A stretch of 64,000 bases of DNA from Candidatus Abyssobacteria bacterium SURF_5. Its GTDB lineage: Bacteria; Abyssobacteria; SURF-5. Shown here piece after piece: positions 6,839 to 62,745 of the stretch; within the stretch, counting starts at the first letter, position 1, and every line of letters starts with the position of its first letter. The position numbers were made by a program, and so were the translations under genes. The DNA is taken from positions 1 to 64,000 of the forward strand of contig QZKU01000145.1 of NCBI GenBank assembly GCA_003598085.1, given 5' to 3'. The notes below the pieces were generated by a model. The model searched no databases. It was not told the DNA's origin and saw nothing but the letters and a program-made list of their open reading frames with translations.

Positions 6839-6844
6839 CGATAG

Positions 6845-6881
6845 GGATTGCAGGTCTATAGACTCACCTGCAATCCTTTTT
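6845..6881 (+). terminator. Intrinsic terminator of tRNA-Val
   Basis: An 11-bp perfect stem GGATTGCAGGT/ACCTGCAATCC (6845-6855 with 6866-6876) and a 10-nt loop are followed by TTTTT. It works only for plus-strand transcription. Its loop contains the stop codon of the convergent hisF (6856-6858), and its right arm encodes the last HisF codons. Confidence 0.9.
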
Positions 6882-7620: not shown

Positions 7621-7667
7621 ATTGCTTCCTCTCGGTGATTCTCCCTACGTTTCGAAATTTTCGGAGC

Positions 7668-8894: not shown

Positions 8895-8974
8895 GGAAAT
8901 CTCCTTTCTCAGGCCTTTGCCCGAAGAGGAAGACGCAGGTCGGAATCTCCTTGCGCATTGGCCGAATTCGGTGC

Positions 8975-10156: not shown

Positions 10157-10213
10157 GGAGTCACCGGAAAAACCGATTTCAGGGGAAGCGGGCACATCGC
10201 TACGGGTACGATA

Positions 10214-41185: not shown

Positions 41186-42136
41186 CTATTCGTGCGTTAC
41201 GCTCGATTTGACCTGGTAATAAAGAACTCCATCCCGAAGGACTTGGTGCAGGAGATTTTCTTCGAGGAGTTTCTGCAGATGTTTCACTGCTTCATTTCGG
41301 TGAATTCCGAGCCCTTTCGAGATGTCTTCGAGCGTGCATGGACGGCGTCGCAACAGAGCAAGCACTTCCTCAGTCACCCTTTGCTGCTCCGGCTCGGCCG
41401 GATGCCGGCCATATGGCGTTATTACCTCAGCATTCTCAAAAAAATCGCAGATACGCGCCATTTCAGCGTCGGGCACCCTCTCGGCCCAGCCTTCCGCGGG
41501 CGGACGGATCACCGTGTTCAGTTGGAGCTTGTCCGCAACAATTCGCTCCGCACATTTTTTTATTCGATCAAGGGCGGGTGCGGACGTGTTGATGTTATTG
41601 ACCAGAAACACTTCAAGCCATAGTTGTCCGGAATATTCCTTTCGGAAGAGAGAAAGTCCTTCAACGACCTGATCGAATTTCAATTCGGGAGCGGGCCGAT
41701 TGATCTTCTGGAAAAGAGCTTCGTCGCCCGCATCGAGCGAGGGCACCACAAGGTCGGCCGGCAGAAGGTCCGCCCGCACCGCCTCATCCCATAAGAGCGA
41801 TCCGTTCGTGAGGACGGCAACAGGAATCGCGCTCTTGTGCTTGATCGCTTTGATGAGCTTGCCGATTTCCGAGTGAAGCGTCGGTTCTCCCGAACCCGAA
41901 AGCGTTATATAGTCCGGCCGCTCGCCTCCTTCAAGCTTCCGCCAGAGCTGGCTCAAGATGTCCGAAAGCGGAACGTATTCTTTACGAGCAATGGTTCGAC
42001 AAGTTGTCCGGCCTAGCTGACAGTATATGCAATCGAAGCTGCATGTCTTGAAGGGAACCAGATCAAGCCCCAGAGAGCGCCCCAACCGCCTCGAGGGAAC
42101 CGGCCCAAAAACGTACCTGCAGTTTGGCTTCGTCAT
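41186..42136 (-). CDS. Radical SAM protein with C-terminal winged helix
   Basis: Protein of about 316 residues. The [4Fe-4S] cluster motif is CSFDCIYC (Cys32, 36, 39), preceded by the subfamily mark FGPVPSRRLGRSLGLD. SAM-binding features such as LSGSGEPTLH follow. The C-terminal 70 residues (RRRPCTLEDISKGLGIHRNEAVKHLQKLLEE) form a winged helix. ATG 42136 has GGAG upstream; ATG 42160 would add eight residues without one. Members of this group are uncharacterised; the C-terminal domain suggests nucleic-acid binding or self-regulation. Confidence 0.85.
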   Translation of the reverse strand: MTKPNCRYVFGPVPSRRLGRSLGLDLVPFKTCSFDCIYCQLGRTTCRTIARKEYVPLSDILSQLWRKLEGGERPDYITLSGSGEPTLHSEIGKLIKAIKHKSAIPVAVLTNGSLLWDEAVRADLLPADLVVPSLDAGDEALFQKINRPAPELKFDQVVEGLSLFRKEYSGQLWLEVFLVNNINTSAPALDRIKKCAERIVADKLQLNTVIRPPAEGWAERVPDAEMARICDFFENAEVITPYGRHPAEPEQQRVTEEVLALLRRRPCTLEDISKGLGIHRNEAVKHLQKLLEENLLHQVLRDGVLYYQVKSSVTHE

Positions 42137-42206
42137 CTCTCTCCGTAGTTGGGTGACCACCGACTATGAAATGGCCGCCTGAGCACAAGCGGCGCCCTCA
42201 CCAGCC

Positions 42207-42508: not shown

Positions 42509-42670
42509 TTAACCTTCCCATCCAAAATTGAATAACGCCTCAGTCCGGCACATCGTTCTCCACTCACTCTCGTTCTGAGCATCAATAATGCCAACGAAAA
42601 AGACTCTCCGCTTGCCAAGTCGCAAGGCATTGACAACACGTGCTTTAAATCCTTGCCTGTTGAGCTTTTG
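42509..42670 (-). pseudogene. Possible coding remnant without a start codon
   Basis: One minus-strand frame reads 53 codons between stops and looks protein-like (for example KRRVFFVGIIDAQNESEW and TEALFNFGW), but it has no start codon and no ribosome-binding site. It may be the 3' end of a decayed gene. The rest of 42470-42987 (518 bp) shows no other feature I can support. Confidence 0.2.
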
Positions 42671-42987: not shown

Positions 42988-43380
42988 TTAGGAAGCCTCC
43001 TCACGAGGACATGCCAGCGCTTCCTCTACCGCCGCGAGAAATTTATCCGGATCGACGGGCTTATCAAACACCGCGGCCGGTTTTCTGACGGCGAGGTCGC
43101 GCCCGGCAAGGCCGCTGACCACGATGATGGGCGTATGCTTCAGCTCCTTGTCTCTGGATAACTTGCGCGCGAAATCCGTGCCGGTCCTCTTCGGCATCAG
43201 AAGGTCGAGAATCACAAGATCCGGCTTTTCGCGGCGAGCCGCTTCGTAGGCCTCCTCCACGTTGTACGTCGGAATCGGTTGGTAGCCGTTCTTTCGCAAG
43301 AGCGTCTCGAAGAAGACCACTACGTGTTTCTCGTCATCCAGAATCAGAATCTTCTTCTTTTCTTGATCGCCGTTCTTCAT
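42988..43380 (-). CDS. Single-domain response regulator
   Basis: CheY-like receiver of 130 residues with no output domain: ILDDEKH acidic pocket, phospho-acceptor Asp in VILDLLMPKRTG, Ser in VVSG and Lys in VFDKPVDP. It lies 156 bp downstream of the NifX/DUF1847 gene on the same strand and may share its sigma-54 promoter. It probably acts by protein-protein contact, perhaps with the PAS kinase encoded at 55.7 kb. Confidence 0.9.
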   Translation of the reverse strand: MKNGDQEKKKILILDDEKHVVVFFETLLRKNGYQPIPTYNVEEAYEAARREKPDLVILDLLMPKRTGTDFARKLSRDKELKHTPIIVVSGLAGRDLAVRKPAAVFDKPVDPDKFLAAVEEALACPREEAS

Positions 43381-43536: not shown

Positions 43537-44526
43537 TCACACTTCTTTCAGAATATCGTTTATGTAGTACTTGGAGTACAGAGCGCTCACCGGATTGTTT
43601 GCGAGCGACTTGTCTTTTACGAACAGGGTGGACATGGGCGCCTCGCTGTATCGCGCGAAAATGCAGTCGCATCCCACGCACAGTCCCACCGCCGCGTTGA
43701 TATCCGTCTTCAGGCTGTTCAGTACGCGCGCCTGCCCGATCGGATTGCAGCACATCCCTTCGACGGCCGTTATGGCATCATGCTGCGTCTGCCCCCCGAT
43801 TCTGCAGCACACAGTGCTCACCTTGAAAAAGCGCCGGAGCAGGCGCGTGAGTATCTCGACTTCCTGAAACATCTCCACGCAGAAAGCGATCCCGATATGT
43901 TTGTATTCCATGCCGAGGCAGTAATAAATAAACTCGGCAATGCGACACAGCTTCCTGTCTGTCTCCGCGGATATATCCGCAGTGACTTCCATCGAATGCC
44001 GAAGGTCAGAGTACTCGTCCGCCAAGAAAAGGTCCTTCGTGTCATTCGTGCAACTCTTGTTCTCCATGCACGGACGATCGATACATTCCACACAATCGAT
44101 CCTGTCCTTCTTCTGCGCGGATTCTTCTACCGGCTCCCTGTCGAGCAGGATCGCCCTCACGCTCGAAGCAAGCGCGCCGGCCTGGTTCGATAATCCGAAC
44201 CCTGTCTCCAAACGGCCGCTGAGAAGGGCGGAAAGGATATCCTCTACTTCAGCCGCCACGTTGTAAATGACTCTTATCCCGAATGAATCCGCCCTCTCGA
44301 TAAAATCCTCTTCTATTGCGCCGCAGATGAAGAGATCGATGCGCAGATTTACCAGTTGCGCGAGCCGTTCTTCATCACTCATGCCGCCTGTATCTATGAT
44401 TTTCCTCGAGACCACTTCATTGTCTTTAATGCTGACGAGCAACATCTGGTCCGAATAGATACACCGGGGAGATACCCGCGTGCCGAATAAGGGGATTGCA
44501 ACTCTCACAATCTGGTTCCTGTTCAT
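43537..44526 (-). CDS. NifX-like domain fused to DUF1847
   Basis: Protein of 329 residues. The first about 115 residues (VRVAIPLFGTRVSPRCIYSDQMLLV...) resemble the dinitrogenase Fe-Mo cofactor (NifX/NifB C-terminal) fold, which binds metal clusters. A Cys-rich linker (DCVECIDRPCMENKSC, about 144-160) opens a DUF1847 domain, recognised by IGIAFCVEMFQE, the MCCNPIGQA block, VGLCVGCDCIFARYSEAP and NPVSALYSKYY. Many cysteines suggest an Fe-S or metal site. A strong sigma-54 promoter lies about 100 bp upstream, divergent to the Hdr operon. Function unknown; a metallocluster-binding regulator or chaperone is a guess. Confidence 0.85.
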   Translation of the reverse strand: MNRNQIVRVAIPLFGTRVSPRCIYSDQMLLVSIKDNEVVSRKIIDTGGMSDEERLAQLVNLRIDLFICGAIEEDFIERADSFGIRVIYNVAAEVEDILSALLSGRLETGFGLSNQAGALASSVRAILLDREPVEESAQKKDRIDCVECIDRPCMENKSCTNDTKDLFLADEYSDLRHSMEVTADISAETDRKLCRIAEFIYYCLGMEYKHIGIAFCVEMFQEVEILTRLLRRFFKVSTVCCRIGGQTQHDAITAVEGMCCNPIGQARVLNSLKTDINAAVGLCVGCDCIFARYSEAPMSTLFVKDKSLANNPVSALYSKYYINDILKEV

Positions 44527-44621
44527 TCCCTCAGCGCGCGAAGCGCATGTCCTCCAACCGAATGAATTGCCGGCGCACTCGCTCTTCTCTTGCCCGCCGG
44601 AATTCCTTCCAAAAACAATTC

Positions 44622-44637
44622 GGGCAATAACTGTGCC
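44622..44637 (-). promoter_or_regulatory. Sigma-54 promoter for the NifX/DUF1847 gene
   Basis: On the minus strand: TGGCACA, GTTA, TTGCC, an almost perfect -24/-12 promoter with GG-N10-GC spacing. Transcription would start near 44611, giving an 85-nt leader before the ATG at 44526. Confidence 0.8.
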
Positions 44638-44888
44638 AAACCCCCGCGCCGTTGTTTCCGTCGCGGACGGAGCGGCAACATGCCCCCTTTATCGACGTTC
44701 ACTGCATCTTCTCCGCAAAAAGCGGAGCGCTCGGGGACGCCGCCGGTGTTACATCGGGTGCTGCATGCAGCGCTGCACCGCAATAGTTCTTGATCGCGCG
44801 CTGCCCGCCCGCCCGTAAGACTGCGGCAACCCGTAAGCCGCCTTCGAAAAATTTTCTTTAGCGGAGCGACAGCCAGTGTCGATGTATT

Positions 44889-44909
44889 CCGCGGCATGAC
44901 CTGCCGCGG
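44889..44909. promoter_or_regulatory. Inverted repeat, candidate activator-binding site
   Basis: CCGCGGCA, TGACC, TGCCGCGG: perfect 8-bp arms with a 5-bp spacer, 20 bp upstream of the sigma-54 -24 box and between the two divergent sigma-54 promoters. Size and place fit a dimeric enhancer-binding protein. Other half-site-like GCGGCAAC copies occur at 44672-44679 and 44823-44830. A perfect 12-bp palindrome GCTGCATGCAGC (44760-44771) and CTCCGC-N5-GCGGAG (44711-44727) also lie in the 290-bp space. No gene is present there. Confidence 0.5.
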
Positions 44910-44929
44910 CCGTGCGGAGCATTTGACGG

Positions 44930-44945
44930 TGGCATAGTTTTTGCC
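44930..44945 (+). promoter_or_regulatory. Sigma-54 promoter of the Hdr operon
   Basis: TGGCATA, GTTT, TTGCC with the GG-N10-GC spacing. Transcription would begin near 44956, about 90 nt before the first Hdr gene, whose ATG (45044) has AGGAGG 8 nt upstream. Confidence 0.75.
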
Positions 44946-45043
44946 CAACTAAAAGACGGTGGTGGCATCCGACGCCATGAGGAAACGGCGAGCGAGCATT
45001 GAGCCGCCCCGCAAATGGAGCTTGAGAACAGGAGGTTCTTCAT

Positions 45044-46183
45044 ATGGCTTCTGTTTCCCCGATGCTTGAAATAACCGACGCCATCATGGAGGTCGGCGGC
45101 AAGACTCTGAAGGTATGCATGCAGTGCGGCACGTGCACGGGAGTATGTCCCTGGAATCTGGTGGACGAATTCAGCCCGAGGCTCTTGATCCGGCTGGTCA
45201 GCCTGGGCATCGAAGGATATGAACAGGACAGCCTGTGGAATTGCGTCACCTGCGCCACGTGCGTCACCCGGTGCCCCCGTGGAATCGATATCATCGATGT
45301 CATCAGATCGACGCGGAGCGTCATGCTCGAGAGCGGAATCGTGCCGCCGGCCTATCGCGTGCCTCTCGCAAGCCTGCGCAATGAGGGGAATCCGTGGAGC
45401 TCTCCCCGCTCGGAACGCGCGGATTGGGCGGCAAAATTGAATATTCCCGAGTTCTCCGAGGCGACCGAACATCTGCTTTTCGCCTGCTGCACCCATGCGT
45501 ATGACGCCCGAAACAGGAAGGTCCTGAAGGAGACGGCCGAACTGCTTCTAAAAGGAGGCGCCTCCGTCGGCATTATCGGAACCGAGGAAAGCTGCTGCGG
45601 CGACCAGGCGCATAAATGCGGCGCTCTGGAAACATATACGGCGCTGCAGGAAGCCAATACCGAGCTTTTTGCCGCTCGCGGAGTCAGAAAGATCATCACC
45701 ACGTCTCCTCATTGCCTGAATCTGTTCATCAAGGAGTATAAAGGCGAGTTCGATGCAGTCCATTACACGCAAGTCTTCGCGAAGCTCATCAAGGAGAAAA
45801 AGCTTGTTCCTGCAAAACCGGTCCCATTGAAGGTCGCCTATCACGATCCCTGCTACCTGGGCCGCCACAACAACATTTATGATGAGCCGAGAGACGTTCT
45901 CCGCAGCATTCCCGCACTGGAGTACGTGGAACTTCCCCGATGCAAGCAAAGGAGCCTGTGCTGCGGCGGAGGCGGAGGCGGCATCTGGTCTGAAATCGAA
46001 GTCGAAAAACGTTTCAGCGTGCTGCGCATACGGGAGGCGAAGGAAGCCGGCGCAAACGTGATAGCCACCGCGTGCCCGTTCTGCATGATCATGCTCGAGG
46101 ACGGCCTGAAGGCTTCAGGCATCGATGAGAGCGAGATGAAGATTCTCGATGTGAGCGAGTTACTCTATGAATCGGTCGAATAA
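45044..46183 (+). CDS. HdrD-like iron-sulfur protein (HdrC-HdrB fusion type)
   Basis: Protein of 379 residues. An N-terminal bis-[4Fe-4S] domain (CMQCGTCTGVCP and CVTCATCVTRCP, about 25-85) is fused to two CCG domains. The CCG cysteines appear in LFACCTHAYD...ESCCGDQAHK and CYLGRHN...SLCCGGGGGG...CPFCM, where HdrB/HdrD holds non-cubane clusters that reduce a heterodisulfide. The protein resembles HdrD, TmcB and DsrK, which pass electrons to or from a disulfide or membrane partner. No membrane anchor is visible. It is the first gene of a sigma-54-controlled nine-gene operon. Confidence 0.9.
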   Translation: MASVSPMLEITDAIMEVGGKTLKVCMQCGTCTGVCPWNLVDEFSPRLLIRLVSLGIEGYEQDSLWNCVTCATCVTRCPRGIDIIDVIRSTRSVMLESGIVPPAYRVPLASLRNEGNPWSSPRSERADWAAKLNIPEFSEATEHLLFACCTHAYDARNRKVLKETAELLLKGGASVGIIGTEESCCGDQAHKCGALETYTALQEANTELFAARGVRKIITTSPHCLNLFIKEYKGEFDAVHYTQVFAKLIKEKKLVPAKPVPLKVAYHDPCYLGRHNNIYDEPRDVLRSIPALEYVELPRCKQRSLCCGGGGGGIWSEIEVEKRFSVLRIREAKEAGANVIATACPFCMIMLEDGLKASGIDESEMKILDVSELLYESVE

Positions 46184-46198: not shown

Positions 46199-49100
46199 AT
46201 GAGCAGAGAATTTCCATTAAGAGAGGAACGAATCGGTTTCTATATCTGTCATTGCGGTATCAATATCGCATTCAAGGTCAGATGCGCTGAAGTAGCCGAG
46301 TATATCGGAACATTGCCCGGCGTCGCCGTCTCGCGCGATTACCTGTTCATGTGCTCTGATCCCGGGCAGGAGATTATCGAGAAAGACATCAGGGAGCTCG
46401 ACCTGACGCGCGTGGTGGTCGCTTCCTGCTCCCCCCGCATGCACGAGCATACCTTCAGGGCGGCATGCGCGCGAGCCGGCCTCAACCCCTTCCGGGCATT
46501 TCATCATGTCTGCGTCCGGGAGCATGTATCCTGGGTCACTCTCGACGAAGACCAGGCCACCGAGAAAGCAAAACTGCTCGCTCGCGCCGGCATCAGGCGC
46601 GTGCGATATCAATCCGACCTCTTTCCCAAAACCTTCCCCGTCAATCCCAACACGCTCGTGGTCGGCGGCGGAATCACCGGAATGCAAGCGTCGCTTGACG
46701 TCGCAAAGGCAGGTTACAAGGTGTATCTCGTCGAGCGGCAGGCCACTATCGGCGGCCACATGCTCCAATACGACAAGACCTTCCCGACCATGGACTGCGC
46801 CGCCTGCATCGGTACGCCCAAGATGGTCGCCGTCGGCCAGAATCCGAACATCGAAATTCTCTCCCTGAGCGAGGTCGAAGAGATCAGCGGTTTCGTCGGC
46901 AACTTCAAGGTCAAAGTGAGAAAGCACGCCCGCTACGTGAAAGCTGACAAGTGCACAGGCTGCGCCGAATGCACCAAGTATTGTCCCATCATCGTGCCGA
47001 ATGAATGGGATGTGAACACGAAGCAGCGCAACGCCGTGTACCGGCCGTTCCCGCAAGCGGTCCCCATCACGTTCGCCATCGATAAAAAGGACAGGGGCCC
47101 CTGCGTCCAGACGTGTCCCGCCGGCACCAATGTGCAAGGCTACGTCACGATGATCCGAGAGGGCAAATACAAGGAAGCCCTCAAGATAATCATGGAAAAC
47201 CTCCCGCTCCCGGGCGTGCTCGGCAGAGTCTGTCCGGCCCCATGCGAAAAAGAGTGCAGGAGAGGCGAAGTCGATGAGCCGGTTTCAATCCGGAACCTGA
47301 AGCGCTTCGCCGCCGACCAGGCGGATTGGGAAACGCTCGAACTGCCCGAAATCGATATGAAGCCGCCTGAGGAAAAGGTGGCGATCGTGGGATCGGGCCC
47401 GGCAGGCCTTGCCTGCGCGTATTTCCTCGCCCGAAAAGGATATCATCCGACCGTCTTCGAGGCCTTGCCGGAGGTCGGCGGCATGCTGCGGGCCGGCATC
47501 CCCGATTACCGCCTGCCGCCCGAGGTGCTCAATCGCGAAGTGAATTATATCCGCCGCCTGGGAGTCGAGATCAAGACCAACGCTCCCATCGGCGGAGAAA
47601 CAACAATCGAGAGCCTCCTCGCCAATGGCTTCAAGGCAGTGTTCTTGTCGACCGGCGCCCACAACGAATTCAAACTCGGTGTCGAGGGCGAAGACGCCGC
47701 AGGCGTGCTGAAAGGAATCTCGTTCCTGCGCGACGTGAATTTCTGCGCGAATGGAGAGGTGGGCAAGAAGGCCGTCGTTATCGGCGGCGGCGCGGTCGCC
47801 ATGGACGTGGCCCGCGTCGCTCGGCGCAAGGGCGCCTCGGAAGTGCACGTCTATTGCCTTGAGAAGCGACACGAAATGCCCGCGTGGGTCGAGGAGATCG
47901 AAGCCGCCGAGGCCGAAGGAATCGAGATTCATAATGCATGGGGCGTCAAACGGATATTGACGAACGACGCGAAAGTCAAGGGCATCGAGTTCAAGCGATG
48001 TACCGCGGTATTTGACGAAAACAAGAGATTCAGTCCGCAGTACGATGATTCTGAAACCATAACCGAAAACTGCAATACGGTTCTGGTTGCAATCGGCCAG
48101 AGACCTGATCTGTCCTGCCTCAACGGCTCGAAGGATGTCCAGCTTACCCGAAGAGGCCTTATTGCCGCCGATCCGGTCACCTTGCAGACCAGCAAGCCCG
48201 GCGTTTTTGCGGGCGGCGAAATGTATTCCGGGCCCTCGCTTGTGGTGCAGGCGGTGGCGACCGGCAAGGAGGCCGCCATTTCCATCGAGCGCTACTTGAA
48301 GAGCGAAGACCTTGTTCTCGACAGGCCCGAGCGTCCAAAGGGCGAGAACTGGGCCCCCATCCCTGAAGACGTCCAGAAGGCCGCTCGTGCGAAAATGCCC
48401 GAACTCGCGCCCGCTGACAGAGTGAACGGCTTCGTCGAAGTCGAGACGGGCTTCACCGAGGAGCAAGCCAGAGCCGAAGCCGCCCGCTGTCTCTCGTGCG
48501 GCGTGTGCTGCGAGTGCAAGCAGTGCGTGCCCGCTTGCGAGGCGAAGGCAATCGACCACGATGCCAAGGACGAAATCGTCACGCTCGACGTGGGCTCAAT
48601 TATCCTGGCCACCGGCTTCGACATCATGGACCCGACGCCGATGCAGGAGTACGGCTACGGCAAATACCGCAATGTTCTGACAAGCTTGGAATTCGAGCGC
48701 CTCTCCAACGCCACGGGTCCCACCTCCGGCAAAATCCTTCTCCGGGACCCGAACGACAGGTGGAACCACACCCGGCCCCCCAAGAGCGTCGCATTCCTGC
48801 ACTGCGTCGGCAGCCGCGACAAAAACTATCACGACTATTGCTCGCGAACCTGCTGTATGTACGCGCTGAAAATGGCGCACCTGGTTAAGGACAAGTGCGG
48901 CCATGACACGCAGGTGTTCAATTTCTACATCGATATGCGGTGCTTCGGAAAAGGACAGGAGGAGTTTTACCGCCGCATCCAGGATGAGGGCGTGAGGATG
49001 GTCCGGGGCAAGGCCGTCGAGGTGACCGATAAGGCGGAGGACCCGAGCGAAGAAGGAATGCTCATCGTACGGGCGGAAGACTCGCTGATCGGCAAAATGC

Positions 49101-49630
49101 TGAGGGTGCCGGTCGAGATGGTGGTTCTGTGCACGGCCATGGAACCGCGGCCGGACGCCCTGGAGGTGGCCAGAATCTTCGGCCTATCACTCAGCGCCGA
49201 CGGCTTCTTCATGGAAGAACATCCGAAGCTCGAGCCGGTCTCGACCCCAACCTCCGGCGTCTTCCTCGCCGGCGCTTGCCAGGGTCCGAAGGACATAACT
49301 GATTCAGTCGCGCAGGCAAAAGCGGCCGCCAGCGAAGCGCAGGCGCTTTCCACCCTGGGGAAAGTGATCGTCCCGCCGATGATAAGCCATATCGACGAAG
49401 ACATCTGCATCGGCTGTCAAGTCTGCATCGGGTTGTGCCCGTACTCTGCGATCGAATTCGACGAATTCAAAAAGGTTAGCGTGGTGAATGAGGCTGTTTG
49501 TAAAGGATGCGGGAGCTGCGCCGCCTACTGCCCGAGCGGCGCCGCCGACATACGCCATTTCACCCAAAAACAGATTTTCGGTGAAATCGAGGGAATCCTC
49601 GTAGGAGCCAAGGAGACACGCGATGAGTAA
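46199..49630 (+). CDS. hdrA: HdrA with inserted GltD-type NAD(P)H:flavin domain
   Basis: Protein of 1143 residues. It starts as HdrA: CHCGINIA, an FAD site LVVGGGITGMQASL (about 154), FPTMDCAACIGTPKM, and a ferredoxin-like CTGCAECTKYCP (about 251). From about 300 to 760 the sequence is that of the GltD/NfnB small-subunit family: Cys-rich CVQTCPAG...CPAPCEKEC, an FAD site VAIVGSGPAGLACAY (about 394) and a nucleotide site VVIGGGAVAMDVAR (about 525). HdrA then resumes (CVGSRDKNYHDYCSRTCCMYALK) and ends with two [4Fe-4S] motifs (about 1070-1115). The inserted domain suggests NAD(P)H enters the complex here. It overlaps the MvhD gene by 8 bp. Confidence 0.92.
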   Translation: MSREFPLREERIGFYICHCGINIAFKVRCAEVAEYIGTLPGVAVSRDYLFMCSDPGQEIIEKDIRELDLTRVVVASCSPRMHEHTFRAACARAGLNPFRAFHHVCVREHVSWVTLDEDQATEKAKLLARAGIRRVRYQSDLFPKTFPVNPNTLVVGGGITGMQASLDVAKAGYKVYLVERQATIGGHMLQYDKTFPTMDCAACIGTPKMVAVGQNPNIEILSLSEVEEISGFVGNFKVKVRKHARYVKADKCTGCAECTKYCPIIVPNEWDVNTKQRNAVYRPFPQAVPITFAIDKKDRGPCVQTCPAGTNVQGYVTMIREGKYKEALKIIMENLPLPGVLGRVCPAPCEKECRRGEVDEPVSIRNLKRFAADQADWETLELPEIDMKPPEEKVAIVGSGPAGLACAYFLARKGYHPTVFEALPEVGGMLRAGIPDYRLPPEVLNREVNYIRRLGVEIKTNAPIGGETTIESLLANGFKAVFLSTGAHNEFKLGVEGEDAAGVLKGISFLRDVNFCANGEVGKKAVVIGGGAVAMDVARVARRKGASEVHVYCLEKRHEMPAWVEEIEAAEAEGIEIHNAWGVKRILTNDAKVKGIEFKRCTAVFDENKRFSPQYDDSETITENCNTVLVAIGQRPDLSCLNGSKDVQLTRRGLIAADPVTLQTSKPGVFAGGEMYSGPSLVVQAVATGKEAAISIERYLKSEDLVLDRPERPKGENWAPIPEDVQKAARAKMPELAPADRVNGFVEVETGFTEEQARAEAARCLSCGVCCECKQCVPACEAKAIDHDAKDEIVTLDVGSIILATGFDIMDPTPMQEYGYGKYRNVLTSLEFERLSNATGPTSGKILLRDPNDRWNHTRPPKSVAFLHCVGSRDKNYHDYCSRTCCMYALKMAHLVKDKCGHDTQVFNFYIDMRCFGKGQEEFYRRIQDEGVRMVRGKAVEVTDKAEDPSEEGMLIVRAEDSLIGKMLRVPVEMVVLCTAMEPRPDALEVARIFGLSLSADGFFMEEHPKLEPVSTPTSGVFLAGACQGPKDITDSVAQAKAAASEAQALSTLGKVIVPPMISHIDEDICIGCQVCIGLCPYSAIEFDEFKKVSVVNEAVCKGCGSCAAYCPSGAADIRHFTQKQIFGEIEGILVGAKETRDE

Positions 49631-50051
49631 GGAGTTCGAACCCACAATTGTTGCTTTCCTCTGCAACTGGTGCACGTTCACCGCTGCGGACCTCGCCGGC
49701 ACGTCGCGCCTCAGTTATCCCGAGAACGTCAAGATAATCCGCATGATGTGCAGCGGCATGGTCGATCCGCTCTATGTTCTCAAAGCCTTCATGGAGGGGG
49801 CGGACGGCGTTTTCATCGGAGGATGCTGGCCCGGCGACTGCCATTATATCAACGGCAACCTGAAGGCGCGCCGGCGAGTGGCGTTGCTTACGGAAATTCT
49901 GAAGCAGTTCGGAATCGAGGAGGACAGGTTCTGGCTGCGCTGGGTTGCCGCCAGCGACGGCGTCATGTTCCAGGAGTTCTCCAAACAGATGACTGAAAAG
50001 CTCCGACAAATGGGGCCGAGCCCGCTCAGTGTCAATCAAACAATCGCGTGA
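49623..50051 (+). CDS. mvhD: MvhD/FrhD-like [2Fe-2S] electron-transfer subunit
   Basis: Protein of 142 residues in the MvhD family, which relays electrons between HdrA and a hydrogenase or dehydrogenase. The family cysteines are seen in FLCNWC (about 14-17), MMCSGM and GGCWPGDCHY. It starts inside the end of the HdrA-GltD gene and precedes an FrhB-like gene. With no hydrogenase subunits encoded here, it likely bridges the Hdr core to the FrhB-like or GltD module. Confidence 0.92.
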   Translation: MSKEFEPTIVAFLCNWCTFTAADLAGTSRLSYPENVKIIRMMCSGMVDPLYVLKAFMEGADGVFIGGCWPGDCHYINGNLKARRRVALLTEILKQFGIEEDRFWLRWVAASDGVMFQEFSKQMTEKLRQMGPSPLSVNQTIA

Positions 50052-50073
50052 GGATTCGCTGAGGAGAATTGAG

Positions 50074-51210
50074 ATGACGGAATACAGCAAACTGGTTGCT
50101 CAAGATGGTTCGATAAACAAATCGCTGGCCTCTTTTTTCAGGACCATGCTCGAGAAGAATGTCGTGGACGCCGTCCTCGTGCCGGCCCACCAGAATCCAA
50201 AGGGAGTCATGCAGACGCTGATTACCGCCCCGGAAGCGCTCGATGCCGTTGACCCCTTCGCGCCTGTAGCGCCGACGAATTCGGCAAGACTCGTGACCCG
50301 GCTCACGAACGTCCCCTCCGGGAGGCCGGTGGCGGTGGTGATGCGGTCGTGCGAGATACGGGCGCTCCTCGAACTGGTCAAACTCAAGCAGGCGAACGTC
50401 GACGACCTCCTTTTGATCGGAATTGACTGTCTCGGCAGATACGAAAATGCCGATTACTTGAAATACGAACAAGGCGGCGCCACGACCGAGGACTTCCTCA
50501 AAGCCGCTTGCGGAGACAAAGGAACCAAAAGCGCCGACGGGTTCGACGTTGCCGTCGCCTGCCGGATCTGCGAATATCCGGCGGCAGACAATGCGGATGT
50601 CCGCCTCTGCGTCATTGGCGCCTCTCCGGGCGAGGTCTTTGTCGAGTGGGCCACGGAGAAAGGGCTGAATGCACGCAAGGCGATGGGACTCGAAGCGGAA
50701 GCAGGCCCGGCCGGCCGCGACGCGGCGGTGCAACAGATCAAGAAAACGAGAACCGCGCAACGAGACAAGGTGTTCTCCGATATGTATGAGCACGTCGGGA
50801 GCATGGAGAAGCTGCGGGATCATCTGGCTGGTTGCATAAATTGCTATAACTGCCGCGCGGCCTGCCCCGTCTGTTATTGCAAAGAATGCGTCTTCGTCAC
50901 CGATACCTTCCGCCACCCCGGCGACCAATACCTCTCATGGGGCGATAAGCGCGGCTTCATGAAGATGCCAACCGAGACAGTGCTGTTCCACCTGACTCGC
51001 ATGACTCACATGAGCGCGCTGTGCGTGGGCTGCGGCCAGTGCTCGAGCGCGTGCCCGAATGATATCCATGTGACCGAGCTTTTCAGGTCGGTCGCCAACA
51101 GGACTCAGGCCAGATTCGACTACCATCCGGGCAGATCGCTCGATGAGCCTCAGCCGCTGGCGGTGTTCTATGCGGAAGAGCTTACGGAAGTAACCGGACA
51201 AGTTAAGTAG
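50074..51210 (+). CDS. FrhB/FdhB-like flavin iron-sulfur protein
   Basis: Protein of about 378 residues (from ATG 50074, which has AGGAGA 8 nt upstream). It resembles the beta subunit of F420-reducing hydrogenase and of formate dehydrogenase: a flavin-binding core with RSCEIRALLELVKLKQ and LLLIGIDCLG, plus two cluster motifs, CINCYNCRAACPVCYC (about 261) and CVGCGQCSSACP (about 320). In FrhB the core binds FAD and reduces F420; bacterial homologues may use NAD(P)H, ferredoxin or an unknown partner. No catalytic formate dehydrogenase or hydrogenase subunit is encoded in the window. Confidence 0.85.
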   Translation: MTEYSKLVAQDGSINKSLASFFRTMLEKNVVDAVLVPAHQNPKGVMQTLITAPEALDAVDPFAPVAPTNSARLVTRLTNVPSGRPVAVVMRSCEIRALLELVKLKQANVDDLLLIGIDCLGRYENADYLKYEQGGATTEDFLKAACGDKGTKSADGFDVAVACRICEYPAADNADVRLCVIGASPGEVFVEWATEKGLNARKAMGLEAEAGPAGRDAAVQQIKKTRTAQRDKVFSDMYEHVGSMEKLRDHLAGCINCYNCRAACPVCYCKECVFVTDTFRHPGDQYLSWGDKRGFMKMPTETVLFHLTRMTHMSALCVGCGQCSSACPNDIHVTELFRSVANRTQARFDYHPGRSLDEPQPLAVFYAEELTEVTGQVK

Positions 51211-51219: not shown

Positions 51220-54200
51220 ATGACTGAGGAAAACGCTGTCGGAACAGTGCTCGTCGTGGGCGCCGGCATCGCCGGAATCAAATCCGCCCTCGAATTGGCC
51301 GAGACGGGTTATAAAGTTATCCTTACCGACAATTCGCCTTCTGTCGGCGGCATCCTGCAAAAGCTCGACCATCAGTTCCCAACCGACCACTGCGGAATGT
51401 GCAGGATGCTGCCGCTGGTCGGACGCGAACACGCGTCGCAGCACTGCATGCGCAAAAGCCTGTTCCATGACAACATCGAGATTCTTCCGTTCACCGAGAT
51501 CACATCCGTTAAAGGAGACGCAGGCGCCTACACAGTGGAGCTGCTCAGACGGGCGCGGCATGTCAATACCGATATCTGCAACGGACTCGGCAAGTGCATC
51601 GACGTGTGCCCGGTGGAAGCGCCCGACGAATTCAATCAGGGCCTTACCCGGCGCAAAGCCATCTACAAGCCTGTCCCTCATAATGTCCCCCAAATGCTGC
51701 TCATAGATATGCAAGCCTGCACCAGGTGCGGCGAGTGCGTGAAGGCGTGTCCGGTGAACGCGATCGACCTGGAGGCGCAGGACGAAGCGAGCCTGGTCGA
51801 GGTGAATGCAATAATACTCGCGGCCGGCGCGACTCTCTATGATCCCGCCACAGATGATGACGCGAAAGCATATGCGGTCTCGCCCGACGTCGTCAGCTCG
51901 TTGGCCTTCGAGCGCATCTTGAGCGGATCGGGCCTCTACGACGGGACGATCCGCCGCCCGTCGGATGGCAAGCCCGCCAAACGCATTGCCTGGATTCAAT
52001 GCGTCGGCTCCCGCAACCGCAGGAAGGGCCGAGATTATTGCTCGTCCATTTGCTGCATGTTCGCGCTCAAAGAGGCGGTGCTCGCCCATGAAAAGGGAGG
52101 GCCGGACACCGAGACAACCATCTTTTACATGGATATGCGCACCTTCGGGAAGGAGTTTTATCAGTACCGCGAGCGGGCCGAACGCGAATACGGCGTGCGC
52201 CTTGTTCGCTGCCGCGTTCAGAGCGTGTTGCGGGAGGCCGACGGCTCGCTGCTGGTCCGATACCTCGATCAGAAAACCGGAGAATTTGTCGAAGACTCCT
52301 ATGACATGGTGGTGCTTTCGACCGGTCAGGCGCCTTTCGAAGACCATCGCAGGCTCGCCGAATTGCTCGGCTTGGATCGCGCGCCCTCGGGACTGCTCCC
52401 CCTGCTCGACTTCGAGAAAGTGAAGCTGGTGAAGCCGGGAATCTTTATCTGCGGCTCGCTGATGGGGCTCACCGACATCAGCGAGGCCATCACCAGCGGG
52501 ATCGCAGCGGCAGGTGAAACATCGAAAATGCTTCTTGCCTCCGGGATCAAAAGGCTGGAAGACGAGCCGGCTCCGGAACGGCCGGTGGACAAACAGGCTC
52601 CGCTTGTATCGGTCGTTCTGTGCAGTTGTAAAGGAGTCAAGGCGCCCGAAGGGCTCGACCTCGAGCCGCTGATCTCGACCATCAAGAAATATCCCGGAGT
52701 GGGTGAAGCTCATCTCGTGGAGGCGCTGTGCCGGGAAGAGGGAGAGCAGGAGCTTAAGGAAATCCTCGAGCAGACAAAATGCAACCGGCTCATCATCGGA
52801 GCCTGCCTCCCGTACGTGTACCGGCAGCGGTTCAGGAAGCTGGCTCAAACCGCAGGTTTCAATCCGGCCCTGGTGGAGATATTTGATCTGTTGAGCGCGG
52901 CGAGACATGGCCTGCCGGAGACAAACGGGACCGATTGGGTGCAGTTGGCTTTAGAGGAAATGAGCGCGCTGCTCGAAAAACTTAAGCTGGCGCAGGCGCT
53001 TCACTCTCATGCTCTGCCCATCCATCAGACGGCGCTCGTGGTCGGCGGCGGCGTCGCAGGTATGCGAGCCGCCCTCTCCCTTGCCGATCGAGGGATCAAA
53101 ACACACCTGGTGGAAAAATCCGACCGGCTCGGCGGGCATGCGGCCAATGGATTGCATTACACGATTGACGGATTAGACCCCGCCGGCCTGGTCTCCGAAC
53201 TGAACCGGAAAATCGAGGAGCAGCGGAACCTGACAGTCCATTTGAACAGCGAGATTATTGGCTCCAAGGGTGCGCTCGGACGCTTCACTACCGAAATCCG
53301 CAGCAGCGACAGCAACCAAAAACTCGAGCACGGCGCGGTGATCATAGCCACCGGCGGTCATGAAGCCAAAACCACTGAATACGCCTACGGCCAGAGCGAG
53401 CGCGTTGTGACCCAGGTTGAACTGGAGGAGCGACTGACAGCCGGGGAACTCGATGCGGCAACTCTGGAGAACGTGGTGATGATTCAATGCGTCGGCTCGC
53501 GGGAGAAAGGCGCGCGCGAGTACTGCAGCCGCATCTGCTGCGCGGCCGCATTGAAGAACGCATTCAAGATCCTTGAGAAGAATCCTGCGGCCCGCATCTA
53601 CATCCTCAATCGGGACATGATGACCTACGGCTTCCTCGAGAAATACTATACCAGGGCGCGAGGCGAAGGGATCATGTTCATCAATTATGAACTCGATCAG
53701 AAGCCGCAGGTGGAGATCGTTGACGACAAGCCGCTCGTGAAATTCACCGATCCGGTCCTCCAGATGCCGCTCGAGGTGACCGCCGATCTGCTGGCGCTCG
53801 CCACCGGCATACAGCCCCCTTCATCCAACGAACAGCTTGCCCAAAGCTTCGGCTTGCCGCTCACGTCGGAAGGCTTCTTTCAGGAGGCCGATTCGAAATG
53901 GCGGCCGGTCGAATTCAAGAAGCTGGGCGTCTTTCTCGCGGGCACGGCGCACAGCCCGCTGCCACTGAACGAATCGCTCATGCAGGCTGAGGCCGCGGCG
54001 CAGAAAGCCTACGCCCATATCTCCCGACGCACGATTCAAACGGCACGAGCCGTATCCAAAGTGCACGACGCCATCTGCGCCCGCTGCCAAATATGCGTGG
54101 AAATCTGCCCGTACAATGCGCGCGCGTTTGATCCTGAACAGAACTGCATCGTCGTCGACTCGGCAGCATGCCAGGCCTGCGGCCTGTGCGCGGTCGCTTG

Positions 54201-54321
54201 CCCGAACAAAGCCGCGGAAGTGCAGGGCTGGAGCGAGAAACAGACGCTGGCGATAATCGACGCGAAGCTGAGAAGCACCGGCCATTCGCGGCGGCGGGCC
54301 GGCAAGGAGGTAACAACGTGA
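51220..54321 (+). CDS. hdrA: Tandem double HdrA
   Basis: Protein of 1033 residues carrying two HdrA units. Unit one has an FAD site VLVVGAGIAGIKSAL (about 10), FPTDHCGMCRMLP, CNGLGKCIDVCP (about 120) and CTRCGECVKACP (about 167). A linker resembling the HdrA N-terminal domain (VVLCSCKGVKAPEG..., about 465-580) leads into unit two with its own FAD site ALVVGGGVAGMRAAL (about 605). Unit two lacks the FPTxxC cysteine loop. Two C-terminal ferredoxin motifs follow (CARCQICVEICP, CQACGLCAVACP, about 953-1000). HdrA is the bifurcating flavoprotein of HdrABC. SD AGGAGA lies 6 nt before the ATG. Confidence 0.92.
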   Translation: MTEENAVGTVLVVGAGIAGIKSALELAETGYKVILTDNSPSVGGILQKLDHQFPTDHCGMCRMLPLVGREHASQHCMRKSLFHDNIEILPFTEITSVKGDAGAYTVELLRRARHVNTDICNGLGKCIDVCPVEAPDEFNQGLTRRKAIYKPVPHNVPQMLLIDMQACTRCGECVKACPVNAIDLEAQDEASLVEVNAIILAAGATLYDPATDDDAKAYAVSPDVVSSLAFERILSGSGLYDGTIRRPSDGKPAKRIAWIQCVGSRNRRKGRDYCSSICCMFALKEAVLAHEKGGPDTETTIFYMDMRTFGKEFYQYRERAEREYGVRLVRCRVQSVLREADGSLLVRYLDQKTGEFVEDSYDMVVLSTGQAPFEDHRRLAELLGLDRAPSGLLPLLDFEKVKLVKPGIFICGSLMGLTDISEAITSGIAAAGETSKMLLASGIKRLEDEPAPERPVDKQAPLVSVVLCSCKGVKAPEGLDLEPLISTIKKYPGVGEAHLVEALCREEGEQELKEILEQTKCNRLIIGACLPYVYRQRFRKLAQTAGFNPALVEIFDLLSAARHGLPETNGTDWVQLALEEMSALLEKLKLAQALHSHALPIHQTALVVGGGVAGMRAALSLADRGIKTHLVEKSDRLGGHAANGLHYTIDGLDPAGLVSELNRKIEEQRNLTVHLNSEIIGSKGALGRFTTEIRSSDSNQKLEHGAVIIATGGHEAKTTEYAYGQSERVVTQVELEERLTAGELDAATLENVVMIQCVGSREKGAREYCSRICCAAALKNAFKILEKNPAARIYILNRDMMTYGFLEKYYTRARGEGIMFINYELDQKPQVEIVDDKPLVKFTDPVLQMPLEVTADLLALATGIQPPSSNEQLAQSFGLPLTSEGFFQEADSKWRPVEFKKLGVFLAGTAHSPLPLNESLMQAEAAAQKAYAHISRRTIQTARAVSKVHDAICARCQICVEICPYNARAFDPEQNCIVVDSAACQACGLCAVACPNKAAEVQGWSEKQTLAIIDAKLRSTGHSRRRAGKEVTT

Positions 54322-54827
54322 CTGATCTTGCGACAGCGAATAAGGACCTGTGGCGGGACGTCTTCGACAGCGAAGACCTGCGCTATTGCTTCAATTGCAG
54401 CACCTGCATCTCCGGCTGTCCCGCATCCAATGCGAACCCGCCGCTTCTGATCAGGAGCCTTGTTCGCATGGTAATCCTCGGGCTGGAAGACGAATTGCTC
54501 GAGCAGGACACGCCGTGGACCTGTGTCACCTGTTCGCGGTGCGAGGAGTTCTGTCCCATGGATGTGAAACCGTTTGAGCTGTGCCTCGCGGTGCGCCGGT
54601 GGCAAAGCCGCAACGACGAGACGCGCATCCCGCCGTCGATCGTCGAGATTTACAGCCGGGGCTACACGCAGGCGGTGGAACGAAACACTGAACAGAGAAA
54701 ATCACTCGGTTTGCCCGAAAAACTGCCGGTAATCACCGAATATCCGGAACTGCTGGAAAAGTTCCGGCAAATGCTCATGCAAACCAAGGTGATCAGCGAT
54801 AACGCCTATATGTTCGAAGGGGTGTGA
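54318..54827 (+). CDS. hdrC: Heterodisulfide reductase subunit C
   Basis: Protein of 169 residues with two [4Fe-4S] motifs, CFNCSTCISGCP and CVTCSRCEEFCP, the HdrC electron relay between HdrA and HdrB. The start is GTG 54318, overlapping the hdrA stop (GTGA), with AAGGAGG 7 nt upstream inside hdrA. An open frame extends further upstream but only within hdrA. HdrB follows after 1 bp. Confidence 0.93.
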   Translation: MTDLATANKDLWRDVFDSEDLRYCFNCSTCISGCPASNANPPLLIRSLVRMVILGLEDELLEQDTPWTCVTCSRCEEFCPMDVKPFELCLAVRRWQSRNDETRIPPSIVEIYSRGYTQAVERNTEQRKSLGLPEKLPVITEYPELLEKFRQMLMQTKVISDNAYMFEGV

Positions 54828-54828
54828 A

Positions 54829-55707
54829 ATGGAATTCGGACTCTTTCTCGGATGTAATACCCCCGCAATCAGGCCGGACGTCGAGCGCGCAATCCGGCTC
54901 ACCATGCCGAAGCTCGGAGTCGATCTGATAGACCTCGAGGGCTACGTCTGCTGCCCGGCTTTCGGCACGTTTCCCTCAGCCGATGAAGACTCCCACCTGG
55001 CGGTCAGCGGTTGGAATCTCTCGCTCGCCGAGCAGAAGGGGCTCGATCTGCTGGTCGAATGCGGCTCGTGCTACAGCTCATTGCGGATGGGGAGGGAACA
55101 CATCCTCCATGATGAAAAGAAAAGGGCGCGCGTGAACGAACTGCTGCAGCCGGTGGGGAGGACGGTCGAGGGCAAAACGAAGGTGCGCCATATCAGCGAC
55201 GTTCTCTACAACGACGTAGGCCTGGAGAAGATCGCCGCCAGCATCGACAAGAAACTCGAAGGATTGCACGCCGTCGTGCAATACCCCTGCCACACTCTGT
55301 TTCCCAGCGAACACGTGGGTTTTGACAGCCCGCCGGCGCGGCCCCATATCATGCGTGACCTCGTCGAGGCGCTGGGAGCGAAAGTCGACGCCTTCAGCCG
55401 CGAGTACCAATGCTGCGGCGGCGCTGGCGGCTTCCATGGAACTTCTTCCGCTGAAGCGCGCGCTTTTGCGCAAAGCAAATTCGACGCCATTAAAAAAGAG
55501 ACGCAGGCGGATTTTATTGTCGTCTCCTGCATTACCTGCCTCATGTTCCTCGATAATGTTCAAAAAGAGTTGAATGAAGGCAACGGTAAATACAATCTTC
55601 CCGTTTTTGATTACAACCAGATACTGGCGCTCTGCATGGGCTTCGATCCGAAACAGGTGGCTCCCATCTGCAGCGTTCCAAGAGACACAATCATTAGCAG
55701 GCTCTGA
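54829..55707 (+). CDS. hdrB: Heterodisulfide reductase subunit B
   Basis: Protein of 292 residues with the two CCG domains of HdrB. The first has LFLGCNTP...YVCCPAFG...CGSCYSS, the second QYPCHTLF...YQCCGGAGG...SCITCLMF. These cysteines hold the two non-cubane [4Fe-4S] clusters where a disulfide is reduced in methanogens; in bacteria the true acceptor is unknown. Translationally linked to hdrC. Its stop codon TGA lies in the loop of a perfect hairpin (55696-55715). Confidence 0.93.
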   Translation: MEFGLFLGCNTPAIRPDVERAIRLTMPKLGVDLIDLEGYVCCPAFGTFPSADEDSHLAVSGWNLSLAEQKGLDLLVECGSCYSSLRMGREHILHDEKKRARVNELLQPVGRTVEGKTKVRHISDVLYNDVGLEKIAASIDKKLEGLHAVVQYPCHTLFPSEHVGFDSPPARPHIMRDLVEALGAKVDAFSREYQCCGGAGGFHGTSSAEARAFAQSKFDAIKKETQADFIVVSCITCLMFLDNVQKELNEGNGKYNLPVFDYNQILALCMGFDPKQVAPICSVPRDTIISRL

Positions 55708-55740: not shown

Positions 55741-57207
55741 ATGGTTGAAAGAGATTTTACGCAGTGGCTTCACGCCGAGCTTTTTGATCGGGTCCCGAGC
55801 AACGTCGCGATAATTAATCGAAAGTATCACATCATCGATGCCAACCAAAACTTCTCCGCCGAGTTCGGTGAGTGGAACGGCAAGTTCTGCTATGAGGTTT
55901 TCAGGGGACGCAAGACTCCGTGCCTCTCCTGCAAGGCGGACTTGACGTTCGCCGACGGCAAGGGGCGCGTGAGCGAAGAGCGGCGCCTGAACCGCAACGG
56001 CAAATATTCCTACTATGTCGTATATTTTGAGCCGATCAAGAACAGCGCGGGCGACATCCTGTACGTGATCGAGATGTCCTCCGATATCACCGAGACGCGC
56101 CTGCTCCAGAGAGAGCACGACATCATCTTTGACCGCGTCCCCTGTTATGTGGCCGTCATCGACAACGACATGACAATCTCCCGCAACAACGAGCTGTTCC
56201 GCAAGACCTTCGGCGAATCCATCGGGAGAAAATGCTATGATATCTATCAGCACCGATCCGAGCCGTGCGAGGATTGCCCCGCCATGCAAACATTCACCGA
56301 CGGTCAGACGCACGTCGCCAGCAAAACGGGTTTGGATAAAACCGGCCAGCCGGTTTATTATCACGTGACCACTGCTCCTCTCTCGCGGGAAGGTCGTGAG
56401 CCTTCGCACGTGATCGAAATGGCCCTGGACATCACCGAGGTAAAGCAACTGGAACGGGAAGTGCTCGAGGCCGAGCGGCTCGCGGCGGTCGGAGAGACAG
56501 TGGCCGGCCTGGCGCATGGCATAAAAAACGTGCTCCAGGGCCTCGAGGGCGGCGTCTACGTGCTGAAGACCGCCATGGAAACCGATGACAAGGACCTCAC
56601 AGGGCAAGGCTGGGACATGCTGGAGGAAAATGTCGACCGCATCAGCGCCTACGTGAAAGACTTCCTGAATTTCGCCAAAGGACACGCGCCGCACGTGGAG
56701 CGGGTCGATCCGGTGCAGGTGGCAAAAGCGGTTTATGACCTCTACAAGGATGTGGCCGACCGGAGCGGCGTAAAGCTGCTGTTCGACCCTCAGGAAGGCA
56801 TCGATCCCGCCAACCTCGACCACGAAGGTATTCACGTGTGCCTCTCGAACCTGATCTCCAACGCCGTCGACGCCTGTGAAATGAGCGACAATCCGCATTG
56901 CGAGGTTCGGCTCTCGGTGTTCGAGCGAAACGGCAGTCTGATCTATGAGGTCGCCGACGACGGCTGCGGAATGGACTACGAAGTCAAAAAAAAGGTGTTT
57001 ACGACCTTCTTTTCCACCAAAGGAACCGCCAGGGGAACGGGTCTGGGATTGCTCGTCACCCGCAGGATCACCCAGCAGCACGGGGGGAAGGTCGTCTTCG
57101 AATCAATCGAGGGTGAAGGCTCCATTTTCCGACTGAAGTTCCCGCGAAATCGGCTGCCCGAATTGTCCCAGCCGCAGCCGGACAACGGGGAAGCCGCTGA
57201 TCAATGA
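55741..57207 (+). CDS. Soluble double-PAS histidine kinase with cysteine signatures
   Basis: Protein of 488 residues without transmembrane segments. PAS1 (about 10-120) and PAS2 (about 130-245) both carry C-x10-C-x2-C (CYEVFRGRKTPCLSC with Cys50, 61, 64; CYDIYQHRSEPCEDC), suited to a redox or metal sensor. The H-box is LAHGIKNVLQGLEGG with His259, where Gly replaces the acidic residue usually following His. HATPase (NLISNAVDAC, DDGCGM, GTGLGLLV) is intact. It lies 34 bp after hdrB and 10 bp before a receiver gene, so sensor and electron-transfer genes are in one operon. Confidence 0.9.
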   Translation: MVERDFTQWLHAELFDRVPSNVAIINRKYHIIDANQNFSAEFGEWNGKFCYEVFRGRKTPCLSCKADLTFADGKGRVSEERRLNRNGKYSYYVVYFEPIKNSAGDILYVIEMSSDITETRLLQREHDIIFDRVPCYVAVIDNDMTISRNNELFRKTFGESIGRKCYDIYQHRSEPCEDCPAMQTFTDGQTHVASKTGLDKTGQPVYYHVTTAPLSREGREPSHVIEMALDITEVKQLEREVLEAERLAAVGETVAGLAHGIKNVLQGLEGGVYVLKTAMETDDKDLTGQGWDMLEENVDRISAYVKDFLNFAKGHAPHVERVDPVQVAKAVYDLYKDVADRSGVKLLFDPQEGIDPANLDHEGIHVCLSNLISNAVDACEMSDNPHCEVRLSVFERNGSLIYEVADDGCGMDYEVKKKVFTTFFSTKGTARGTGLGLLVTRRITQQHGGKVVFESIEGEGSIFRLKFPRNRLPELSQPQPDNGEAADQ

Positions 57208-57217: not shown

Positions 57218-57781
57218 ATGCCGGTGACGCAACCTTCGGAAAAAACCGTTCTCGTGGTTGATGATGAAAAAAACGTGAGGCTCTTTCTGAAGACCGTTCT
57301 CGAGAAGGCCGGTTTCAGAGTCGAGACCGCCGCCGACGGTCTCGAGGCGCTGGAAAAGGTGAAGGCGAATCCTCCGGATGTGATTTCGCTTGACCTCGTG
57401 ATGCCAAAGAAATCGGGAGCCACATTTCTGCTCGAAATCCGCAAAGACAAGGAACTGCAGAACATCCCGGTAGTCTTGGTCACCGCCCACGCAAAGGATG
57501 CCTTAGGCAAGGAAGATTTTGATACGATCATGTCCGGCGAAACGATCCGAAGCCCGGAGTCGTACCTGACAAAACCGGTCAAGGCCGAAACCTATCTCAA
57601 CAGCATAAAGCGCGCGCTCGACACCAAACACATCAAGACGCTGGTGACCGCCGGAGTCACCGGGTCAACATCAAAGAATATCAAAGATGAAATCAAAGAA
57701 CTGCTCGATGAAGCGGATCCGGCCAAACTGCAAGAGGCGCTTCGCATCCTGAAGGAAAGAAAACAAGGCGAAGAAAAGTAA
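57218..57781 (+). CDS. Response regulator receiver protein
   Basis: Protein of 187 residues: a receiver (VVDDEKN, Asp in ISLDLVMPKKSG, Thr in LVTAH, Lys in LTKPVK) and a short helical charged tail (STSKNIKDEIKELLDEA...ILKERK) with no DNA-binding domain. An insert of about 15 residues (GKEDFDTIMSGETIR) lies before the conserved Lys. GGAGGG is very close to ATG 57218; GTG 57224 two codons later has better spacing. It is probably phosphorylated by the kinase just upstream and acts through protein contact. Confidence 0.9.
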   Translation: MPVTQPSEKTVLVVDDEKNVRLFLKTVLEKAGFRVETAADGLEALEKVKANPPDVISLDLVMPKKSGATFLLEIRKDKELQNIPVVLVTAHAKDALGKEDFDTIMSGETIRSPESYLTKPVKAETYLNSIKRALDTKHIKTLVTAGVTGSTSKNIKDEIKELLDEADPAKLQEALRILKERKQGEEK

Positions 57782-59320: not shown

Positions 59321-59336
59321 TGCATCGATCGTGCCA
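59321..59336 (-). promoter_or_regulatory. Sigma-54 promoter of the activator gene
   Basis: On the minus strand: TGGCACG, ATCG, ATGCA, with a perfect -24 box and GG-N10-GC spacing. The start site would be near 59310, about 37 nt before the ATG at 59273, suggesting autoregulation. Confidence 0.7.
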
Positions 59337-59349: not shown

Positions 59350-59644
59350 ATGGACAGCCTCCTCTAACTCATTCGTAATCAATACGATACGGATGACAAC
59401 AGCACAGCTCAGTAACAAGTCCGCAACCCGCAAATAGTAGAAATGCAATAGTCGGTGTAACACGGCTGTTGCATCCCTGCAGCATTCTGCTCCAGCGGAA
59501 GGCATTGCTTCCCTCCGACCTGCCCGACGGAAACCTTGTTTCGCGGTCGACTTTCAGCGGGAAATCAGAGAGGACGAGAAACGGCAACTGGAGGGTTTGC
59601 ATCCTGCAGAAAAGCACGCAACGGCTGAATATTCGACCACCAGC

Positions 59645-62714: not shown

Positions 62715-62745
62715 GTGTTACATTCTCCGTGAGGTCACACGACCC

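Follow-up and report, generated by a model that had tools for sequence, protein, structure and literature searches.

Several σ54-dependent systems of D. vulgaris resemble the locus described here. The orp1 and orp2 operons are divergent, depend on σ54, and are served by a cognate one-component enhancer-binding protein (EBP), DVU2106 (PMC3897727; PMC4641369). A σ54 activator, DVU2394, regulates the adh-hdr genes (DVU2405-2397) (PMC3333781; PMC4641369), and a one-component EBP, DVU3142, controls the Ohc complex (PMC4641369). Both domains of MrpORP bind Fe-S clusters, one of them being of the NifX/NifB type (PMC6345978). QrcABCD is a menaquinone reductase (PMC6303296); Qrc is unmentioned in the Abyssubacteria genome paper (PMC6121073).

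The window analyzed, which is the whole 64,000-nt stretch at positions 1 to 64,000 of contig QZKU01000145.1 from Candidatus Abyssobacteria bacterium SURF_5, contains a gene for a NifX-like/DUF1847 protein that lies divergently from an operon for homologues of heterodisulfide reductase (Hdr). The original prediction saw here a self-contained regulon for an electron-bifurcating complex and knew it as no described system. As a statement about the general scheme, the latter does not stand, since orp1/orp2, ohc, and adh-hdr, all under σ54/EBP control, provide precedents. Taken as a whole, the locus is very probably best explained if the spacer between the two transcription units is a bidirectional σ54 control region, worked by a dedicated activator of PAS-AAA+-HTH architecture.

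Within the 517-bp spacer, two -24/-12 boxes face outward and are separated by 291 bp. One, TGGCACAGTTATTGCC (minus strand, 44623-44638), is the predicted promoter of the NifX-like/DUF1847 gene, and the other, TGGCATAGTTTTTGCC (plus strand, 44930-44945), that of the Hdr operon. Both match exactly a strict σ54 pattern, TGGCAY-N5-TTGC, and the 10-bp spacing of the GG and GC dinucleotides is exact on both strands. The divergent pair had been noted before, with minus-strand coordinates one base too low. Of 20,000 dinucleotide-preserving shuffles of the spacer, 39 produced a strict box on one strand or the other, and none produced one on both (0/20,000). A search of the genome (5,103,455 bases, 145 contigs) finds the strict box 23 times versus 6 times for a reversed control pattern, indicating that most of the genome-wide matches are probably real. 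One of these precedes what visual inspection of the sequence suggests are flgBC-like genes. The genome contains rpoN, on which the prediction depended, as well as an AAA+ activator gene, and the spacer contains a conserved candidate activator site.

The space between the boxes had been described as free of genes and as holding several inverted repeats. The first description holds: the ORFs overlapping it are closed in relatives and have no codon-position bias. One short ORF that spans part of this region (44480-44818) appeared conserved by tblastn and was rejected, having no codon-position signal and a stop in the related genome G002. An Rfam scan of the window returned nothing but a tRNA. The inverted repeats are mostly 7-10 nt matches at chance level; the box pair and the palindromes at 44760-44777, which sit within the enhancer-like site, are the meaningful part.

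The minus operon begins with the NifX-like/DUF1847 gene (43537-44526), whose product of 329 residues matches PF08901 at 109.9 bits against a gathering cut-off of 25. Its match to PF02579 (NifX / Nitro_FeMo-Co) is 19.0 bits, below the cut-off of 26.3, and the protein is therefore called NifX-like only. A profile of the MrpORP C-terminus gives 19.4 bits, and a PDB sequence search yields weak, sub-threshold matches of residues 6-107 to NifX/NifB-fold proteins, including 1rdu and 1o13. AlphaFold models of the NifX-like/DUF1847 protein, made from four sequences, are poor (pLDDT 39.8). The second gene (42988-43380, minus) encodes a receiver-only response regulator (PF00072); G002 has its counterpart, at 75% identity, in the corresponding position. 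Farther along the minus strand lies a gene for a radical SAM protein that ends in an ArsR-like HTH domain (41186-42160), with a weak σ54-like sequence upstream (42578-42593, minus). The larC- and larB-like genes (Ni-pincer cofactor synthesis) at 61527-63495 (minus) were recognized from their translations only.

The tightly packed Hdr operon, on the plus strand, starts with an HdrC-HdrB-like fusion having 4Fe-4S dicluster and CCG domains (45044-46183; PF13183/PF02754) and an HdrA into which a pyridine-nucleotide oxidoreductase domain of the GltD/NfnB-like kind is inserted (46199-49630; PF14691, PF07992, Fer4), each 86% identical to its counterpart in G002. An MvhD/FlpD-like subunit follows (49623-50051; PF02662, 173 bits), and then a weakly matched FrhB/FdhB-like Fe-S flavoprotein (50029-51210; PF04432 at 21.8 bits, just under the cut-off, plus Fer4), a tandem HdrA-like protein (51220-54321), HdrC (54318-54827, with a probable GTG start within a longer ORF, 54168-54827), and HdrB (54829-55707; PF02754, and NCBIfam TIGR03288 at 233 bits, under its cut-off). 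Downstream are a PAS-PAS histidine kinase (55741-57207), whose PAS domains contain Cys, and a receiver-only response regulator (57218-57781; PF00072). Thus, of the predicted pairing of a NifX/DUF1847 gene with an Hdr operon, the DUF1847 assignment is above its cut-off, the NifX domain is sub-threshold, and homologues of HdrA, HdrB, and HdrC do share one operon, as family-level assignments that all fall short of the methanogen equivalog cut-offs. Electron bifurcation by this complex may be surmised from its HdrA, MvhD, FrhB-like, and GltD-like domains. Elsewhere, HdrA-like frames are interrupted by a single TGA, the pattern that an HdrA with selenocysteine should show, at G000:C48:37505-38368 (G000 being the genome under study) and in G001:C5, G002:C113, G008:C209, and G295:C395.

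The strict-box search of the genome also revealed that contig C15 carries another divergent pair. There, a NifX-like/DUF1847 paralog (62% identity) faces an operon for a Qrc menaquinone reductase, and an activator gene whose product is 78% identical to the window activator adjoins. QrcA (200 bits against 180), QrcB (453 against 440), and QrcD (577 against 570) all score above their NCBIfam cut-offs, and the Qrc genes are followed by genes for NarI-like, HdrD-like, and multihaem cytochrome proteins. The span 262-10608 of this locus (L033), which holds a beta-propeller gene as well and whose multihaem cytochrome exceeds 500 residues, has the look of a Qrc/Hmc-like hybrid.

The same gene set was sought in other genomes, as had been proposed. 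The Hdr-type (A) module of the window recurs in G002, and the Qrc-type (B) module is present in G000, G001, and G002. These five Abyssubacterial modules span three genera, with gene-by-gene identities of 49-90%. All five keep the box on the NifX side, and that of the Hdr operon has the same sequence in G002. G001, which is 92% complete, has no A-type NifX-like/DUF1847 gene or Hdr operon; its best match to the module HdrA is partial (48%), with no comparable full-length match. Thus, the switch and its cargo are missing together, and where there is no A module, there is no A-type activator either. In the activator tree the A copies split off with a support of 100; in the NifX tree A and B are not cleanly resolved (support 73-90).

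Among 386 genomes sampled, three from other phyla encode a full-length NifX-like/DUF1847 protein, with 38-44% identity. These three modules belong to two unrelated candidate phyla, and in every one an HdrD-like/NarI-like operon that includes cytochrome or NrfD-type subunits runs divergently from the gene. Outward boxes are present in 3/3 spacers, in looser form in two (GGCAT-N5-TTGC and TTGGTAC-N5-TTGC), and the NifX-side box is looser in all three modules than in Abyssubacteria. Box conservation, proposed as a check, is therefore seen in three genera and in two further phyla. No further full-length members were found in the phyla of G258 and G295. In G295, a gene for a 57%-identical activator lies downstream of the NifX-like gene in the same direction. 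A 186-residue protein of no family, with faint Usp similarity, is encoded after the NifX-like/DUF1847 gene in B-type modules, G295, and G008 (L033 11907-12467; L084 7338-7874); A-type modules have the receiver protein in its place.

A C-x2-C-x4-C-x5-C motif is invariant in all eight NifX-like/DUF1847 proteins. Together with the binding of Fe-S clusters by the MrpORP domains, this favors the idea that the protein is an accessory that would bind an Fe-S or other metal cluster and, most likely, either mature the complex or report its state. The leading alternative is that it acts as a redox or cluster sensor controlling the activator, in the manner of a NifL-like partner rather than a maturation factor, so that the minus operon would be a sensing arm. 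The many invariant cysteines would suit such a role, as would the constant position of the gene opposite the complex, its co-occurrence, in Abyssubacteria as in G295, with one and the same type of activator, and the gene order in G295, where the NifX-like gene, the gene for the 186-residue type of protein, and the activator gene run in one direction. However, the activator has a PAS domain of its own, the NifX/ORP-like relatives bind clusters, and MrpORP works in Fe-S biogenesis (PMC6345978). A sensor is thus a serious possibility, though one judged somewhat less probable than its opposite.

The candidate enhancer, or upstream activating sequence (UAS), lies between the boxes on the plus strand at 44748-44782 (center about 44766) and reads GTTACA-N6-GCTGCATGCAGCG-N4-ACCGCA. 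Its position is conserved in 5/5 Abyssubacterial modules, whose aligned sites give GTYRCR-N6-GYTRCRYGCARCG. When three whole genomes were searched with this 25-nt pattern, allowing one mismatch at most, only those 5 places were found, all with 0 mismatches; since the pattern was built from the same five sites, the informative part is that there are no other occurrences. An independent search for ungapped 25-mers recovered the same site, with 67 matches where the best of 300 shuffles reached 65. Furthermore, once the boxes are removed, GTTGCA/TGCAAC is the top hexamer of all in the eight spacers, with 26 occurrences (in 7 spacers) where 3.5 are expected and no shuffle exceeds 11. Of these sites, the one in the window is the most degenerate; it lacks any exact GTTGCA half-site, and its identification therefore depends on alignment with relatives.

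In all eight modules, the five Abyssubacterial and the three from other phyla, the outward boxes flank a central GTTGCA/TGCAAC cluster. In 7/8 modules, 174-186 bp lie between this site and the complex-side box, the exception being the B module of G000 (157 bp). Measured from the UAS center to the end of that box, four Abyssubacterial modules have distances of 180, 179, 178, and 180 bp; in the other phyla, where half-site positions were used, the distances are about 186, 175, and 177 bp. Looping by a bound activator would be expected to keep such a spacing constant while the spacer around it diverged. The distance on the NifX side is 142-145 bp in four modules and variable in the other phyla. 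It is 234 bp in G001, where an inserted hairpin, CCCTTAATCGGGGACACCATGCAGCATGGTGTCCCCGATTAAGGG, perfect and REP/MITE-like, separates the UAS from the NifX-side promoter (L056, around 10270-10330).

The likely occupant of the UAS is a one-component σ54 activator (57894-59273, minus) with PAS, AAA+, and Fis-type HTH domains; its Pfam matches are PF00158 (220 bits), PF25601, and PF02954. Its GAFTDA loop deviates from GAFTGA. Related activators are 75-86% identical across genera, including an 86% ortholog in G002. A σ54 activator had been placed at the far end of the operon; the activator is real, and its gene, on the opposite strand and convergent with the Hdr operon, is a separate one that lies outside it. 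The stretch separating the receiver gene from the activator gene yielded no terminator-like site.

The activator gene is itself preceded by a σ54-like box, TGGCACGATCGATGCA (59321-59336, minus). A box of the form TGGCAY-N5-RTGC is present 47-63 nt before the start codon in 5/5 Abyssubacterial activator genes, versus ≤1/5 regions in shuffled sets; these boxes are off consensus at -12, with RTGC rather than TTGC. UAS-like half-sites lie farther upstream, degenerate in the window (59444-59483, minus) and in clear clusters in the other copies. The regions before the five activator genes hold 19 half-sites, where 2.1 would be expected, and most of them precede the box by 110-170 bp; the window copy has one exact half-site (P = 0.24). 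Boxes and half-sites together make positive autoregulation the simplest reading, and a probable one.

Could a different activator be responsible? In principle, the histidine kinase and receiver-only regulators of the operon could work with another activator, of the NtrC type, to drive the promoters, while the neighboring PAS activator regulates something else. The kinase is indeed kept behind the complex in A_G000 (the window module), A_G002, B_G002, and G258, with receiver-only regulators alongside in all of these except B_G002, and the genome has >30 PF00158 matches from which such a partner might come. Nevertheless, both receivers are devoid of AAA+ and DNA-binding domains, the PAS activator is found together with the UAS and its own gene is preceded by half-sites of that type, and a genome without the A module has no A-type activator, all of which makes this arrangement distinctly unlikely. 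Least credible, and very improbable indeed, is the idea that the boxes are chance or vestigial and that σ70 transcribes the genes: this is a metagenome-assembled genome from a phylum whose σ70 promoters are not reliably predictable, yet box orientation and spacing are kept across genera and phyla while the remaining spacer has diverged, and the genome has both rpoN and the linked activator.

The best reading of the sequences, then, is that a cassette of a one-component PAS-EBP and σ54 co-induces an Fe-S-rich redox complex and a cysteine-rich accessory protein. The activator would bind the GTTGCA/TGCAAC-type site and loop to σ54 RNA polymerase at both outward boxes. A minus transcript carrying the NifX-like/DUF1847 and receiver genes would start near 44611, and a plus transcript carrying the Hdr, kinase, and receiver genes near 44956. 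The activator would probably also drive its own gene from the weaker σ54-like promoter, providing positive feedback. The probable inducer is a redox or metabolic state. Conserved cysteines in the PAS domains of kinase and activator make a redox signal, read by a Cys-containing PAS domain, plausible. A paralogous copy of the whole switch would govern the Qrc operon. The predicted dedicated regulon is thus upheld by the boxes, the UAS, the travelling activator, rpoN, and the probable autoregulation, but not as one exclusive to Hdr, since a paralog goes with Qrc and the modules of other phyla with HdrD, NarI, NrfD, or cytochrome proteins.

A bolder reading, tentative and rather unlikely as a whole, takes the cassette for a self-reinforcing, portable σ54 redox switch that was duplicated in Abyssubacteria onto a cytosolic Hdr and a membrane Qrc complex, with DUF1847 as a cluster-bearing sensor; because both copies would still recognize one common DNA code, the Hdr and Qrc complexes would be switched together. 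Co-regulation of these two complexes is, in any case, a prediction of this work. The analysis also provides a testable regulatory logic, with a defined predicted binding site, for electron-transfer complexes of uncultured deep-subsurface bacteria, and it ties DUF1847, a domain of unknown function, to the control or assembly of Fe-S-rich redox complexes in three phyla.

In the open-licence literature, no description was found of the NifX-like/DUF1847 pairing, the GTTGCA code and UAS, the apparent positive loop, the architecture, or the twin Hdr/Qrc wiring. The same literature yielded no mention of DUF1847 and, for control of Qrc by σ54 (RpoN, enhancer-binding proteins), only an unrelated Leptospira match. 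Of the described systems, orp shares with the module its divergent σ54 operons, palindromic EBP sites between them, a one-component EBP co-activating both, a clustered gene for a protein with a NifX/NifB-type (Di-Nase) domain, and even the GAFTDA variant, which is present in DVU2106 (PMC4641369). However, orp encodes Mrp-type proteins (MrpORP, with suggested roles in Fe-S biogenesis and cell division) rather than Hdr or Qrc, and an Mrp/MrpORP ATPase domain is absent from the module genes. In addition, the orp EBP gene is driven by σ70 and negatively autoregulated, and orp requires IHF, whereas the eight spacers here contain no exact IHF consensus of the E. coli type, a scan that a degenerate site could escape. 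The adh-hdr system resembles the module in that a σ54 activator governs a heterodisulfide-reductase operon. Unlike the module EBP, which has a PAS domain and no receiver, DVU2394 is a two-component response regulator acting on a direct repeat; adh-hdr contains an alcohol dehydrogenase, a gene absent from the module, and a NifX/DUF1847 arm is not described there. Ohc is similar in its one-component EBP, its operon for membrane electron transfer by cytochrome and FeS proteins, and its conserved sites recognized through comparative genomics; its divergent partner, though, is the EBP gene itself, and it has neither a NifX-like/DUF1847 arm nor an Hdr twin. Thus, the module does not have the gene content that defines the orp, adh-hdr, or Ohc systems. 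Its twin on C15, in turn, is like QrcABCD in having QrcA, QrcB, and QrcD, and differs from it in being extended by the NarI-like, HdrD-like, and multihaem cytochrome genes and in lying under a σ54 cassette.
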